From: Massilia sp.
GTDB taxonomy: Bacteria; Pseudomonadota; Gammaproteobacteria; Burkholderiales; Burkholderiaceae_D
DNA: 64,000 nt
Assembly: GCA_025359245.1 (NCBI GenBank)
Contig: JANYGW010000158.1
Location: 1 to 64,000, forward strand
Direction: 5' to 3'
Shown: piece by piece, positions 55,650-63,836 of the stretch
Layout: the number at the start of each line of letters is the position of its first letter
Position numbering within the stretch: position 1 is the stretch's first letter
Translations under genes and position numbers: made by a program
The notes under the pieces: generated by a model
What the model was told of the DNA's origin: nothing
Databases searched by the model: none
What the model saw: the letters and a program-made list of their open reading frames with translations, nothing else

Positions 55650-56450
55650 CTAACGTGCGTGTTCGACGCCGGCCGCCTGCACCAGCTTGCCGTATTCTTT
55701 GCCGTTGCGCACCTCCTCGATGCTCTTCCAGATCCGCTCGGCCAGCTCCGGCCTGGCCTTGACCAGCGTGTTGGACAGGATCAGGTAGTACGGTTTTTCG
55801 ATGAGCGGCGTGGCGACCATGTCGAGCTGGGGGCCCAGCGCACTGCTCATCAGCACGTTTGCATCGCTGTCCATCATGGCCGCGCCGGCAACCCTTCCCG
55901 TCACTACCTTGCGCCCGACGTTGTACAGCGAATCATTGGTTTCGTCGACCGCCATCTTCAATTCGCGCAACTGTTCGCCGACCGAATAGCCGAGCCGGAA
56001 CGCGATCTTGCCGTCGGCATGCAGAAACTGCTTGCCGTCCCAGTCGATGGCGCTGCCTTTTTTGCGGATCAGGAAATAGCCGGCGTAGTGCATGCGCTTC
56101 TTGACATCGGCCGGTTCGCCGCCCGGGAAGGCGCCGTATTGACGCCGCTCCTCGCTGAAACTGACGGTGAACGCGCCGTCCACCTCGTTCGCCTTGAGCT
56201 TGGCCAGGCAGCGTTTCCACGGCAACAGCTGGTAGTCGAACAGGATGTCGAGCTTGGTCTCTACACGCCGCAACAGCTCGAAATTGAGGCCCTCGCCTTC
56301 GGCCGTACGCCATGGCAGCACCGCCTTGTTTTCAAAACACAGGGTCAGTTTTTCGGTCGCAAGAGCAGGCGTGCAGGCGGCTGCGCACAGCAAGCCGATG
56401 GTCAGGGACCGCCCGAGGCGGCCGGAAATGCGCACAAAATCCGCTGTCAT
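55650..56450 (-). CDS. Periplasmic substrate-binding family protein
   Basis: Signal peptide; SBP_bac_3-like; FELLRRVETKLDILFDYQLLPWKRCLAKLKANEVDGAFTVS. Confidence 0.85.
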   Translation of the reverse strand: MTADFVRISGRLGRSLTIGLLCAAACTPALATEKLTLCFENKAVLPWRTAEGEGLNFELLRRVETKLDILFDYQLLPWKRCLAKLKANEVDGAFTVSFSEERRQYGAFPGGEPADVKKRMHYAGYFLIRKKGSAIDWDGKQFLHADGKIAFRLGYSVGEQLRELKMAVDETNDSLYNVGRKVVTGRVAGAAMMDSDANVLMSSALGPQLDMVATPLIEKPYYLILSNTLVKARPELAERIWKSIEEVRNGKEYGKLVQAAGVEHAR

Positions 56451-56473: not shown

Positions 56474-57823
56474 CTAGGAGTCTAACACGCGTTTTGCGAC
56501 GGGGAAGCAGATTTCGAAATGGGTTTCATCGATGCCGGACGGGGCCAGCCGGTAGCCGAAGCCATGCCGGGTCAGCACTTCGCGCACGAACATCAGGCCG
56601 ATGCCCTGGCCGCCCTTCTTGGTCGTCACGAAGGGCGTGAACAACTGGCGCGCCGGCAATTCGCCCAGGCGGTTGCCCGAATCGATGATAGTCAGGCGCA
56701 CGTGCGCGCCTTCATCGGCCAGCGTGAAGCGGATGTAGCCGGGCTTGCCGCTCTCGGCCTGGGTGGTTTCGACCGCCTCGAGCGCGTTCTTGACGATATT
56801 GAGCAGGGCTTGCTCCATCAGGTGGCTGTCCAGGCGCAGCGCCGGCACCTCGTCGCGCCGCTCCCAGCCGATGGCGATGCCGGCCCGCTTGCACTGTTCG
56901 CGGTTCAGCCACAGGATGTCGTCCATCATGGCCGCCACCGAGGCCGGACGCAGCTCCGGCTCGGGCATCTTGATCACGCGCGTGAAGCGTTCGATGAATT
57001 CGCCCAGGCTGACATTGCGGCGCCGCACCGCCACGATGGCCGTCGAAAAATCGGCGCCGTCCGCCGCCGTCAACTGCGACTGGTAGAACAGCAGCGAGTC
57101 GAGCACCGAGCTGGTGGCCGCCACCGTGTTGTTGACCTCGTGGGCCAGCACGCGGATCAGTTTTTCGTAGGTGGCGCGTTCGGAGCTTTCCAGTTCGGCC
57201 GTCATCTCCTCGACCAGCAGGAAGTGGCGCGCGAAGCCGCGGTCGAAGAACTGGCCGCGCTGGGCACGGTAGCGGCGCCCTTCCGGGTCGGACAGCAAGC
57301 GGCTCTCGCCCAGCGGCAGCGCGTCGAGCTGGGCCGCCAGCGCGCTGCCGTTCCAATGGCCAAGCGGCTTGCCCTTGGGCGCGTCCAGCGCCAGCAGTGC
57401 GTGGGCGCTGGCGTTCACCAGGCTGATGTTGCCCTCGAAGTCGAACACGATCACTGCGCTCGGGGTCGCCTCCAGCAGGCTGTCGAGGAAGCCGCGCTGC
57501 TCGCCCAGTTCCAGCCGTTCGCGGTACAGCGTGCCGAGCATGGTGTTGAACAGCGCGATCAGCTCGTCGAGCTCGGGCACCGCGCTGTCGGTCATGCGGG
57601 CCGCGTAGTCCTGGTCCTGCAGCAGGTCGCGAAAGCGCGCGGTGTATTCGATCGGCCGCATGGCGCGCCCGATCAGCGTAAAGCCGCCGGCCAGGCTGGC
57701 CAGCAGCAGCACTTCGACGCCCAGGAACAGCGCCACCTGCTCCCGCATCAGCGCCAGCGTGAAGGCGAACAGCAGCAGGTGCAGCGCAAGCAGGTAGGCG
57801 CGCAAGCGCCAGCGCAAGCTCAT
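56474..57823 (-). CDS. Sensor histidine kinase, NtrY/NtrB-like
   Basis: HAMP/PAS, LIRVLAHEVNNTVAATSSVLDSLL H-box, HATPase motifs LLNIVKNALEAV, GQGIGLMFVREVL. Confidence 0.94.
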   Translation of the reverse strand: MSLRWRLRAYLLALHLLLFAFTLALMREQVALFLGVEVLLLASLAGGFTLIGRAMRPIEYTARFRDLLQDQDYAARMTDSAVPELDELIALFNTMLGTLYRERLELGEQRGFLDSLLEATPSAVIVFDFEGNISLVNASAHALLALDAPKGKPLGHWNGSALAAQLDALPLGESRLLSDPEGRRYRAQRGQFFDRGFARHFLLVEEMTAELESSERATYEKLIRVLAHEVNNTVAATSSVLDSLLFYQSQLTAADGADFSTAIVAVRRRNVSLGEFIERFTRVIKMPEPELRPASVAAMMDDILWLNREQCKRAGIAIGWERRDEVPALRLDSHLMEQALLNIVKNALEAVETTQAESGKPGYIRFTLADEGAHVRLTIIDSGNRLGELPARQLFTPFVTTKKGGQGIGLMFVREVLTRHGFGYRLAPSGIDETHFEICFPVAKRVLDS

Positions 57824-59205: not shown

Positions 59206-59235
59206 ATTCTTTTAAGGTGCGGAAAGTTTCAACCA

Positions 59236-59335
59236 CATCGTCCCTGCGCAGGCGGGGACCCATGGCACCTGTGGTCAGAGTCCGATACAGAGCGGAGCTG
59301 AGCTGGTATGGGTCCCCGCCTGCGCAGCGACGATG
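59236..59335. repeat. REP-like element, copy 6: near-perfect 28-bp inverted repeat
   Basis: CATCGTCCCTGCGCAGGCGGGGACCCAT (59236-59263) vs inverted 59308-59335, one mismatch. Confidence 0.92.
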
Positions 59336-59341
59336 GGGCGG

Positions 59342-60538
59342 TTATTCGTAATGCAGCGCTTCGGTCGGGCTGAGCCGGCTGGCGCGCCAGCCCGGATACA
59401 CGGAGCACAGCAAGGATAGCAGATAGATCGTCACCATCGACAGTGCCGTGGCCGCCGCAAACACGGTCCAGTTCAGGCTTTCGCCCAGCGCGCCTGTGAT
59501 CGGCAGCTGCACCAGCAGCAGCAGGGCGGCCAGCATCGCGCCTGAACTGAGCAGGAACTGCTCGCCGATGATCTGGCGGTAGATGTCGCCGGCATTGGCG
59601 CCGATCGCGCGCCGCAGGCCGATCTCGGGAATCCGGCGCGTGGTGTTTTGCCACAGCACCCCGAACAGGCCGAAGGCGACCATCAGCAGCAGGAAGGCGG
59701 CAATCACCGCCAGGATCAGGATCGGCGTCAGCTGGTTTTTCAGCATCGTCGTGCGCAAGGCCGACAGCGGCGAAATTTCGTAGGTCCATTCGTTGTTGAT
59801 CAATTTGAGCTGGCGGTTCAGCTTTTCCTCGAAGGCGCGCGTGGTGCCGGGCGCCACCTTGATCAGGATGCCGCGGAGGCCATCGTCGACCGCCGGCAGG
59901 TGGCGCACGATGGCGACGTTGCCCGGTGTGTCGAGCTCGCCTTTCTTGCGCAGGTCCTCGACCACGCCGATCACCCGCAACATCGTATGGTCCTTGCTGT
60001 CGCGGTCGGACGCATCGAACTCCTTGCCGAGCGATGATGCCTCGCCAAACAAGGCCTTGGCCAGGCGCCGGTTGATCACCACCGGCGTGGCCGCAGCGCC
60101 GTCATCGGTATGGTCGAACGCGCGTCCTTGCTCGACCTTGATACCGAGCACGGGGAATGCTTCGTCGCTGACGATGACCTGCTCGGTATGGACGCGCGTT
60201 GCGCTGCCGGGAACGACGTAGTCGGTCGTCCATGTGCTCGACAGGTAAGGCGCGGCTGTGATGAATGCGATCTGCTTCACCTCGGGCAAGGCCAGCAAGC
60301 CGCGCTTGAATTGCTCATACAAGGCCACGCCCTTGACCTTCTTGTTGTCGGCGGCGTTGATGTCGATCGACCAGACGTCGTCCGACGTGAAACCGGTCGG
60401 CATCTGGTACAGCTGGACATTGCGCAGTGCGAAGGCGGCGACGGCAAACACGACGACAAAAGCGAGCAGGATTTCCAGGCTTAGCATCAGGTTGCGGCCC
60501 TTGCGTTTCCAGATCAGTTTGAGTAGGTGGCGAAACAT
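59342..60538 (-). CDS. FtsX-like (MacB-type) ABC permease
   Basis: MFRHLLKLIWKRKGRNLMLSLEILLAFVVVF; RRIPEIGLRRAIGANAGDIYRQIIGE. Confidence 0.93.
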   Translation of the reverse strand: MFRHLLKLIWKRKGRNLMLSLEILLAFVVVFAVAAFALRNVQLYQMPTGFTSDDVWSIDINAADNKKVKGVALYEQFKRGLLALPEVKQIAFITAAPYLSSTWTTDYVVPGSATRVHTEQVIVSDEAFPVLGIKVEQGRAFDHTDDGAAATPVVINRRLAKALFGEASSLGKEFDASDRDSKDHTMLRVIGVVEDLRKKGELDTPGNVAIVRHLPAVDDGLRGILIKVAPGTTRAFEEKLNRQLKLINNEWTYEISPLSALRTTMLKNQLTPILILAVIAAFLLLMVAFGLFGVLWQNTTRRIPEIGLRRAIGANAGDIYRQIIGEQFLLSSGAMLAALLLLVQLPITGALGESLNWTVFAAATALSMVTIYLLSLLCSVYPGWRASRLSPTEALHYE

Positions 60539-61788
60539 CAGATGGCTCCCTTGAGGGCATGAACAGGATCGAGGCGCGACATTTTCCAGGCAGGTAACAC
60601 GCCGGACAGCAGCCCGAACACCAGGGTAATGAACAAGCCGTAGCCCATGACGGCGAAATTCATGTCGACCTTCATGTAGGGCACCAGGCCCGAGCCTTCC
60701 AGCCACAGCAGCACGCCCTTGGCGGCCAGCAGGCCGATCAGGCCACCGAACAGGCACAGCAACACATTTTCGACGATCAGCTGGCGTACCAGCTGGGCGC
60801 TGGTGGCGCCGAAGGCCTTGCGCACGCCGATCTCGGAGCTGCGTTCGAGGATGCGCCCGGAGTTCAGGTTGACCAGGTTTAGCGCGGGCAGCAGCATGAA
60901 CAGCAGCATCATGCCGCCCAGGATGGCTAGCAGTTTGCCGGCGCCGGAATCTTCTTTGTCAGAGTCGCCGATGGTCGTGCGGGCAAACAGGGCCAGCTTG
61001 GTGTCGGCCCAAAAAAGTGCCTTGTTCCACGCCTTCGGATCGTCGAATTCGACGCCTTTGGCAATGCGCTTTACATCGCGCTGGATTTGCGGCAGGTCGG
61101 CCTTGTCCCTGGCCAGCAGCAACGCGACGAACTCGCCCCTTAGTTCATTGCGGTAGGCGGTCGACGGGAAGGTCGCAATCGGCGCCCACAGGTCGGCGTA
61201 AGCATTCATGTGCAGCTCGTCCTTGACCACGCCGATGATCTGGAACTGCTGGCCGGACACGCTGACAGTTTTGCCGAGCGCGTCGGTCGAGCCGAACAGG
61301 CGGCGCGCCGAGCTGGCGTTGATGACGGCCACGAATCGGCCTTTTTCGTCATCCTCGGCGGTGGGGAAACGACCGCCGAGCAGCGTAAAGTCGAGGATCT
61401 TCCAGTAGTCGGCATCGGCGCGCCGCATTTCCAGCTCGGTCACACGGCCATCCTGGTACACCGAAACGGTGCGCGGCATCGTCACTGCCGAGACCCGTTC
61501 GACGGACTGCATCGGTTTCAGATACTTGTCGATCAGCTTGAAGCCGAGCGGACTGGTCGATATGCTCTTGCCATTCTTGCCTTCGGGCGACTCCATGTGT
61601 AGCACCATGATTTGCAGGAAACGGTCGCTCTTGCCTTCGACGCCGGACGGGTAGAAGGCGTTTTCGAGCATGGCGGTGACGACCATCAGCACCACCAGCG
61701 TGAGCACGATGCACAGCAGGTTGATCGCCGTGAACAGCTTGCGCCGCATGAAGACCTTGTAAGCGGTCAGCAGATAATTTTTGAACAT
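60538..61788 (-). CDS. FtsX-like (MacB-type) ABC permease
   Basis: Four-TM MacB topology; RSSEIGVRKAFGATSAQLVRQLIVE; TGATG overlap with the next gene. Confidence 0.93.
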   Translation of the reverse strand: MFKNYLLTAYKVFMRRKLFTAINLLCIVLTLVVLMVVTAMLENAFYPSGVEGKSDRFLQIMVLHMESPEGKNGKSISTSPLGFKLIDKYLKPMQSVERVSAVTMPRTVSVYQDGRVTELEMRRADADYWKILDFTLLGGRFPTAEDDEKGRFVAVINASSARRLFGSTDALGKTVSVSGQQFQIIGVVKDELHMNAYADLWAPIATFPSTAYRNELRGEFVALLLARDKADLPQIQRDVKRIAKGVEFDDPKAWNKALFWADTKLALFARTTIGDSDKEDSGAGKLLAILGGMMLLFMLLPALNLVNLNSGRILERSSEIGVRKAFGATSAQLVRQLIVENVLLCLFGGLIGLLAAKGVLLWLEGSGLVPYMKVDMNFAVMGYGLFITLVFGLLSGVLPAWKMSRLDPVHALKGAI

Positions 61789-61796
61789 GCGGCCTC

Positions 61797-62459
61797 CTAG
61801 GCGACCAATTGGCCGTCGAACACGCGTACCACGCGGCTGGCCAGTTTGGCGTCGTGCTCGCTGTGGCTGACCATGACGATGGTCGTGCCTTCGCTGTTGA
61901 GCTTGAGCAGGATGTCCATGATTTCGGCGCCCATCTTGCTGTCCAGGTTGCCGGTCGGCTCATCGGCCAGCAAGACTTGCGGCCGGCCCACGATGGCGCG
62001 CGCGATGGCGACGCGCTGCTGCTGGCCGCCGGACAGCTGGTTCGGGTAATGGTCCATGCGCGCGCCCAGGCCGACTTTTTCGAGCGCCTCGCGCGCCAGC
62101 TTGCGGCGCTCGCTGCCCGACATGCTGCGGTACAGCAGCGGCAGTTCGACGTTGTCGATGACGCGCAGGTCGTTGATCAGGTGGAAGCTCTGGAAAATGA
62201 AGCCGAAGGTGCTGTTGCGCATTTCGGCGACCTGCTTGTCGCGGTAGGTCTTGACCGGGATGCCGTCCACATGGACCATGCCGGCGCCGGGCCGGTCGAG
62301 CAGGCCGATCAGGTTGAGCAGCGTGCTCTTGCCGCAGCCGCTAGGGCCCATCATGCAGACGAATTCGCCCTTGCGCACATGCAGGTCGATATCCTTGACG
62401 GCCAGGGTCTCGACCTTGTCGGTCTGGTAGGTCTTGCTCACTTTGTCCAGTTTAATCAT
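61797..62459 (-). CDS. ABC transporter ATP-binding protein, LolD/MacB type
   Basis: [47 protein letters not shown]. Confidence 0.97.
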
Positions 62460-62483: not shown

Positions 62484-63731
62484 CTAGTTGCTGATGCGGA
62501 TGCTGTCGTGCTGCTTGAAATTGGTGGTGTCGGAGACGATCAGGCGGTCGCGCATCTGCGCGCCGTGGAGAATTTCGAATGCCTTGCCGTCGCCGTTGCC
62601 GATCTCCAGTTCGGTCTTGCGGGCCATGCCGTCGCGGATCACGTACACCTGCTGGCGCCCCTTGCCGTTGATGGCCGGGCCAGTGTCGGCCACCAGCGCG
62701 CCTTGCTTGTTGTCGGTGATGATGTTGACGTCGACCCGCATCTTGTTGCGCAGCAGCGGGTGATTCGGCTGGTCCAGCGTGACGAGCAGCTTGATGCTGC
62801 CGTTCTGGATTTCGGGCAGCACGGTCTGGACATGGCCGTTCAAGGTTTCCTTGCCCTGTTCGATGCGCACCGCCTGGCCCGGGGCGAGCAGGCGCGCATG
62901 GAAGTCCGAGAGCGAGGCTTCGACCCGGTAGTTGTCCGGTTCGGAGACACGCGCAACTTGCTGGCCCATCTGCAGGCTGGCGCCTTCGTCTTCGACCAGC
63001 ATGGTCAGCACGCCGGCGAAGGGCGCGCGCACGCGGGTGCGTTCGAGCAGGTCCTGCTGCTGCGCCACCTGCTTTTGCAGGATGTTCTTTTGCAGGCGCG
63101 CCCCTTCGATATTGCTGCTGGTGGCGCGTCGGCTGTCTTCGATCAGTTCGCGCTGCTGGCGCAGCTGGATCTCGATGCGCTGCACGTTCAGTTCCGCCGT
63201 CAGCATGTCTTCGCCAGAGACGCCGCCGGCCTTGCGCAATGTGGTGTAGCGCTCGCGCTTGACGCGCGCGCTTTGCAGGTCCAGTTCCAGCAGTTCGATG
63301 CTTGAGACGATCTGCTTGCGCTTCTGGTCCAGTTCCAAGGTCAGGCCGTTGATGCGGTTCTCCTGCTGCGCCAGTTGTTCCTTCAGGCTGTCGAGGGCGA
63401 GCGTGATCGTATGGTCGTCCAGCTCCAGCAGCAGGGCGCCGGCGGCGACCGTCTGGCCCAGTTTCGCGTGGACCTTGGCGATGCGGCTCTGGATCGGGCT
63501 GGTGACCAGCTCCTCGTGCACGGGGATCACGACGCCCGAGGCGTTGATGGCGTTGGCGATGTCGCCGCGCCGCACTTCGGCCACGCGGATGTCGGCGGCG
63601 TTGATGCTGGGGCGCAGCACGCGGTTGATGCCCCAGGCGCTGGCGCACAGCGCGGCCATGACGGCGGCCACGGTCAGCAGCGTCAGACGGCGCCGGCGCT
63701 GCACGGTGAGGGGAGTGAGTGGGATATCCAT
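62484..63731 (-). CDS. HlyD/MacA-like periplasmic adaptor
   Basis: N-terminal TM, coiled coil, IPVHEELVTSPIQSRIAKVHAKLGQTVAAGALLLELDD; upstream of the ABC ATPase. Confidence 0.92.
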   Translation of the reverse strand: MDIPLTPLTVQRRRRLTLLTVAAVMAALCASAWGINRVLRPSINAADIRVAEVRRGDIANAINASGVVIPVHEELVTSPIQSRIAKVHAKLGQTVAAGALLLELDDHTITLALDSLKEQLAQQENRINGLTLELDQKRKQIVSSIELLELDLQSARVKRERYTTLRKAGGVSGEDMLTAELNVQRIEIQLRQQRELIEDSRRATSSNIEGARLQKNILQKQVAQQQDLLERTRVRAPFAGVLTMLVEDEGASLQMGQQVARVSEPDNYRVEASLSDFHARLLAPGQAVRIEQGKETLNGHVQTVLPEIQNGSIKLLVTLDQPNHPLLRNKMRVDVNIITDNKQGALVADTGPAINGKGRQQVYVIRDGMARKTELEIGNGDGKAFEILHGAQMRDRLIVSDTTNFKQHDSIRISN

Positions 63732-63742
63732 GCCGACTGTAC

Positions 63743-63759
63743 AGCAAGGGGCGTGCCAG
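63743..63759 (-). promoter_or_regulatory. Sigma-54 (-24/-12) promoter upstream of ABC exporter operon
   Basis: Minus strand CTGGCACGCCCCTTGCT matches YTGGCACG-N4-TTGCW with correct spacing. Confidence 0.8.
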
Positions 63760-63818
63760 CTCGTTTGCGGGGCTAGGCGTGGCCTTTCGTCGCAAAAAAT
63801 GCCCGTGTTCGCCCATGA

Positions 63819-63836
63819 GTGTCCGGATTCGGACAC
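63819..63836. promoter_or_regulatory. Putative enhancer-binding-protein site
   Basis: GTGTCCG-GATT-CGGACAC, perfect 7-bp arms, about 90-105 bp upstream of the predicted TSS. Confidence 0.65.

Follow-up and report, generated by a model that had tools for sequence, protein, structure and literature searches.

A predicted two-component, sigma-54-dependent switch of a MacB/FtsX-type exporter operon in Massilia

The region in front of a six-gene exporter operon in the window (the whole 64,000-nucleotide stretch of DNA that was analysed) is most probably a dedicated two-component, sigma-54-dependent switch of that operon, a reading to which we give a probability of roughly 0.8. A -24/-12 promoter and a tandem palindromic operator stand ahead of genes for an adaptor, an ATPase, two permeases, an NtrC-type regulator and a histidine kinase, in the following arrangement.

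63819–63836, no strand assigned: operator site 1, GTGTCCG-N4-CGGACAC, a strong palindrome and predicted regulator dimer site, found in 34/34 aligned upstream regions
63799–63816, no strand assigned: operator site 2, ATGGGCG-AACA-CGGGCAT, a weaker palindrome, offset from site 1 by exactly 20 bp
63743–63759, minus strand: sigma-54 -24/-12 promoter, CTGGCACG-CCCC-TTGCT, with 0 mismatches; TGGCAC and TTGC invariant in 34/34
63730–63734, minus strand: predicted transcription start, 0–2 nt from the ATG, inferred from the 27 bp between the -24 T and the ATG
62484–63731, minus strand: first gene, HlyD/MacA-type periplasmic adaptor, 415 aa (Pfam HlyD_3, HlyD_D23)
61797–62459, minus strand: ABC ATPase, 220 aa; closest NCBIfam model DarD, below its cut-off
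60538–61788, minus strand: MacB_PCD/FtsX permease 1, 416 aa
59342–60538, minus strand: MacB_PCD/FtsX permease 2, 398 aa
57820–59205, minus strand: NtrC-type response regulator with receiver, AAA+ domain with GAFTDA, and HTH_8; recognition helix LSRTALYRRLERHG
56474–57823, minus strand: sensor histidine kinase, 449 aa, with two adjacent transmembrane helices joined by a turn of a few residues and no periplasmic domain
55650–56450, minus strand: SBP_bac_3 periplasmic protein, after the kinase

Promoter, operator and operon

The original prediction had seen a nearly full -24/-12 consensus on the minus strand, and the match proved to be perfect. The minus-strand letters at 63759–63743 read CTGGCACGCCCCTTGCT, which contains TGGCAC-N5-TTGC(A/T), its GG and GC canonically spaced, and a pattern scan of all 64,000 nt for TGGCACGNNNNTTGCW returned this position as the sole mismatch-free match. 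As sequence, the promoter is a real sigma-54 element. Its dependence on rpoN, a gene that was found in the host genome, is a prediction.

The two-fold symmetric site that had been proposed, GTGTCCG-GATT-CGGACAC, is present as an 18 bp palindrome at 63819–63836 (GTGTCCGGATTCGGACAC, or GTGTCCGAATCCGGACAC in the minus-strand letters 63836–63819), and the 60 bp gap from it to the -24 T agrees with the distance of about 60 bp given for it. It had been taken for a single site, however, and is one of a tandem pair, the degenerate second palindrome (ATGGGCGAACACGGGCAT in the letters of the window, 63799–63816) lying downstream of the first. When offsets of 14–29 were allowed for site 2, an offset of 20 was selected in 34/34 aligned upstream regions, and palindromicity across these regions peaks at the same offset; with two palindromes set 20 bp apart, the half-sites thus repeat every 10 bp. 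T2, G3, C5, C6 and G7 together with C12, G13, G14 and C16 of site 1 are invariant in the 34 regions, and site 2 has TG..C....CG in 34/34, its other CGGGCA positions being kept in 33–34/34 each.

Within the window, the next best matches to GTGTCCGGATTCGGACAC carry 3 mismatches. A genome-wide scan, also proposed with the original prediction, gave no second exact copy in the host genome (4.96 Mb, 82% complete), and a reversed-pattern control gave none at all. Among 300 genomes of the order, exact matches occur in four, the host and three others. One of the outside matches (L038) belongs to a related exporter; L037 lies inside a coding sequence, L039 follows an unrelated ORF in a stretch devoid of exporter genes, and both were taken as chance. 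Wherever a genome matches the strict tandem pattern, it does so once, at the exporter.

To read the palindrome as chance symmetry, or as a hairpin or terminator in the RNA of the upstream gene, and not as a protein site, is very improbable. The palindrome lies 32 bp past the stop of a same-strand upstream ORF (63869–64657), and palindromes in general are able to fold; the terminator scan, however, lists nothing at this position and no T-run follows, and the terminator reading was dropped on these grounds. The palindrome is moreover kept where the upstream sequence varies, has a partner site at a constant offset of 20 bp, stands at a helix-phased distance from the promoter, and is matched exactly in only 4/300 genomes of the order.

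Conservation was followed in 35 related loci, whose names are mostly Massilia, Duganella, Pseudoduganella or Rugamonas, with a readable upstream region in 33 (34 with the window). Absence from orthologous upstream regions had been named as the outcome that would speak against the prediction; promoter and palindrome were both found ahead of 33/33 readable orthologous operons, or 34/34 with the window. Since the spacer from the operator sites to the promoter varies in both length and sequence between orthologs, this conservation is more than recent ancestry. Both elements are present in 68/69 loci of a wider family sample, in which some genomes are counted twice. The sole loss (L154, genome G866) is an orthologous operon without recognisable promoter or operator, which we read as a natural loss or rewiring. 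In Massilia sp. H-1 (L033, CP087969.1) several exporter genes are frameshifted and the promoter and operators are intact; the frameshifts are likely to be sequencing errors in that genome.

The gene order adaptor–ATPase–permease–permease–regulator–kinase recurs in nearly all orthologous loci whose length suffices to show it. The exporter had been called MacAB-like, and the adaptor and permeases bear this out, as a MacB periplasmic core and FtsX permease (PF12704, PF02687) occur together with HlyD; the fusion of ATPase to permease found in MacB is absent, the ATPase (61797–62459) being a separate gene beside two permeases. The SBP_bac_3 gene at the kinase end is also present in L002 and L033 and absent from most orthologs, and it is doubtful that its product belongs to the circuit. 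Permease 2 and the regulator are separated by 136 bp of repeat-like sequence, an inverted-repeat element at 59206–59341 (GCGCAGGCGGGGACCCAT...ATGGGTCCCCGCCTGCGC). Most orthologs have a much shorter gap here, so that this looks like a recent repeat insertion, and it makes co-transcription of the regulator and kinase with the exporter uncertain in the host.

If, as is usual, transcription begins 12 nt from the GC of the -12 box, the predicted start lies at or within 2 nt of the ATG (63731), and because the promoter ends so near the ATG the transcript should be without a leader. The distance from the -24 T to the ATG is 27–28 bp in 28/67 loci and 47–63 bp in nearly all others, with seven switches between short and long on the tree. 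The mRNA of the host operon, as of the whole 27–28 bp group, should therefore be leaderless, a prediction from the sequence. The ATGGA start of the adaptor is kept in orthologs, with M1 and D2 invariant. For the first gene, Shine–Dalgarno energies carry no information, since what was scored in the leaderless group is promoter sequence and not transcript.

Recognition of the operator and its phasing with the promoter

An NtrC-type regulator with a GAFTxA loop had been claimed for the cluster and is indeed encoded there, with receiver, sigma-54 AAA+ and HTH_8 domains (PF00072, PF00158 and PF02954, as in the NtrC family) and the loop GAFTDA. Its recognition helix was compared with the operator in the orthologs and in further ones from a family-wide search. 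Where the helix has SRTAL or SRAAL, one or both halves of site 1 are TGTCCG; the SRNAL clade (L006, L016, L026 and L031) has TGCCCG-N4-CGGGCA as site 1, and the SRF(A/S)L..EKHQ clade, which is one genus (code g7), has an operator of the form TGTGC..CGCAC. The changes to SRAAL left the operator unaltered. Informative changes on the tree thus amount to two events (the N and F clades), each single, so that the covariation is suggestive and statistically not strong. By our own alignment, the T/N/F position is that of N457 in NtrC. This asparagine is among the residues altered in the classical non-binding 3Ala mutant.

Because operator and recognition helix vary jointly, the regulator of the cluster is the most likely reader of the tandem operator, and its predicted binding to the palindromes upstream of the promoter has strong comparative support. 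It is improbable that another protein, a paralogous NtrC-type regulator or a repressor, binds the palindromes and the local regulator has its targets elsewhere. Further exporter systems of the family, a second and a third, do have NtrC-type regulators and TGTCCG operators of their own, and the host genome carries an NtrC-type paralogue at C13; where a genome holds such a second or third regulator with a TGTCCG-type operator (in the host, C13), cross-binding is possible. The helix of the local regulator nevertheless varies in step with the local operator, the operator is always accompanied by the local regulator in the operon (in loci long enough to tell), and the strict tandem is found once per genome, at the exporter operon.

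The distances between the site 1 centre and the -24 T fall into classes of 61, 71, 81, 91/94, 104, 114 and 125 bp. At a period of 10.5 bp the eight classes gave R = 0.81, with a Rayleigh p of ~0.005, which is our own estimate from the usual exp(-nR^2) formula with kinship ignored and the classes uncorrected for phylogeny. In a simulation of helix phase the outcome was 0/20000; since close classes are forbidden under its null, we rely on the Rayleigh estimate. The spacing data suggest that the palindrome–promoter distance shifts in steps of about one helical turn.

Input to the kinase, second target and related exporters

The kinase had been described as NtrY-like. A kinase it is, with a HATPase match and a sub-threshold PAS match; the NtrY-like part is not specifically supported, as the best NCBIfam matches are AtoS, ZraS and FixL, all below cut-off, and no NtrY model is among the best 25 of 37 NCBIfam families listed. 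Two adjacent transmembrane helices with a short join and no periplasmic domain are shared by the kinases of nearly all orthologs.

By analogy, sensing through the MacB-type transporter would be the likeliest input to such a kinase. We tentatively consider that the exporter may itself be the sensor, its MacB-type permeases switching the kinase in a Bce-like sensing of flux with feedback through sigma-54; this would refine the switch proposed here, not compete with it. The BceAB transporters are MacB-related, and their kinase BceS requires the transporter for sensing (PMC5985334). The present kinase likewise has two transmembrane helices with a short turn and no extracellular sensor domain, and the kinase, regulator and transporter genes remain together. 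The Bce regulator and kinase are of different types, however, the Bce regulator being OmpR-type and the present one NtrC-type, and the PAS-like cytoplasmic region of the kinase could sense instead.

A relaxed pattern led to a further site in the host genome, C111:31782. Here GTGTCCGTTTTCGCACAC and another site 21 bp further on, followed by TGGCACGATGCTTGCA, stand ahead of a gene for a secreted protein. At this locus (L058:3761–6378; host C111:31760–34377) the secreted protein is followed by an M28 peptidase, and a tandem TGTCCG/TGCCCG operator with a sigma-54 box precedes the two. The secreted protein has no match in Pfam or NCBIfam, and its homologue L201 has none in the PDB. The homologous gene in Massilia H-1 has the same layout of elements. 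Six genomes have the elements ahead of this gene and 6/6 carry the exporter, compared with 2/15 for loci without them (Fisher p = 5e-4, with kinship ignored and two or three of the six sites weak). In genus g7 the homologues adjoin the exporter operon, directly 3' of the kinase in the one genome read. The secreted-protein gene is thus a likely second target. The circuit had been thought self-contained, which is close to right, since each genome that matches the strict tandem has a single copy, that of the exporter; the likely second target is what qualifies it.

A second exporter group of the same family (adaptor 22–27% identical, ATPase ~52%) has a divergent NtrC-type regulator and, at most loci, TGTCCG-N4-CGGACA and sigma-54 boxes between genes. 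Among more distant homologous operons, those that have an NtrC-type regulator alongside often carry sigma-54 boxes and differently arranged TGTCCG half-sites. Neither TGTCCG sites nor sigma-54 boxes were found at L085, L088 and L090, which have no NtrC-type regulator in the stretch read; at L087 a regulator and a sigma-54 box are present and a TGTCCG site is absent. The host genome itself holds a second adaptor–ATPase–permease–permease–regulator–kinase operon (L086; C13:1000–16000) whose regulator has GAYTGA and which comes with a sigma-54-like box and TGTCCG half-sites; we read it as a putative paralogous circuit.

Proposed circuit and its relation to known systems

A circuit from sensor through sigma-54 to exporter, as originally proposed, is supported by the conservation and by the covariation of helix and operator. 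From elements, conservation, spacing and covariation, which come from the sequence and its comparison, we infer phosphorylation, binding, looping and the start site as follows. The kinase, with two transmembrane helices and no periplasmic domain, would phosphorylate the NtrC-type regulator, and two phosphorylated dimers would bind the tandem palindromes 20 bp apart and form an AAA+ oligomer. A DNA loop of 60–125 bp on a preferred helical face would bring the oligomer to the -24/-12 promoter, where it would open RNA polymerase–sigma54. Adaptor, ATPase, the two MacB/FtsX permeases, regulator and kinase would then be transcribed, in the clade of the host as a leaderless mRNA. With regulator and kinase on the same transcript, the operon would amplify its own sensor, and the secreted-protein gene elsewhere in the genome would be co-activated.

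The regulator resembles NtrC-family (group I) enhancer-binding proteins in its receiver, AAA+ domain (GAFTxA) and Fis-type HTH, and in its tandem palindromic sites ~60–125 bp upstream of a -24/-12 promoter. It differs from those systems in its predicted target, a MacB/FtsX-type exporter, in an operator of TGTCCG-N4-CGGACA and not the TGCAC type, in GAFTDA in place of GAFTGA, and in the predicted leaderless transcript. PhoPQ is a global system that answers to other signals too and is not known to be sigma-54 dependent. Its control of macAB in Salmonella and E. coli is likewise two-component control of a MacAB-type pump (PMC5985334), whereas here the regulator and kinase genes lie within the pump operon. 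As in BceRS–BceAB of Firmicutes, a MacB-related permease is linked to a kinase without extracellular domain (PMC5985334), but with an NtrC-type regulator, a sigma-54 promoter, an HlyD adaptor, two permeases and a Gram-negative host. The darobactin exporter DarBCDE and MacAB–TolC share the HlyD-type adaptor, LolD/MacB-type ATPase and MacB_PCD/FtsX permeases. No specific name came from NCBIfam; DarC and DarD are among the best matches listed, at 75.9 and 256.9 bits, far below their equivalog cut-offs of 450 and 375 bits. In comparison, the present operon has two separate permeases and a separate ATPase, its own kinase and sigma-54 regulator, and no TolC or peptide gene within it.

The exporter circuit was not found described in the literature searched, which left out most subscription papers, and neither HlyD nor MacB occurs as a term in Francke 2011 (PMC3162934). 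The parts are of known kinds; within that literature, the wiring is new. More speculatively, and on balance improbably, such operons may be widespread, undescribed Gram-negative exporter modules in which the MacB-type transporter senses for an intramembrane kinase and TGTCCG tandem operators switch on the operon's own leaderless sigma-54 mRNA and a secreted protein. The analysis offers an operator code, recognition-helix residue against half-site base, for regulators attached to MacB-type exporters, and with it promoters can be predicted for many gammaproteobacterial pumps that lack annotation. The operons also provide a candidate, evolved repeatedly, for leaderless transcription under sigma-54, and the secreted protein is indicated as a partner of the exporter. 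The circuit could become a Gram-negative counterpart of Bce-type sensing.
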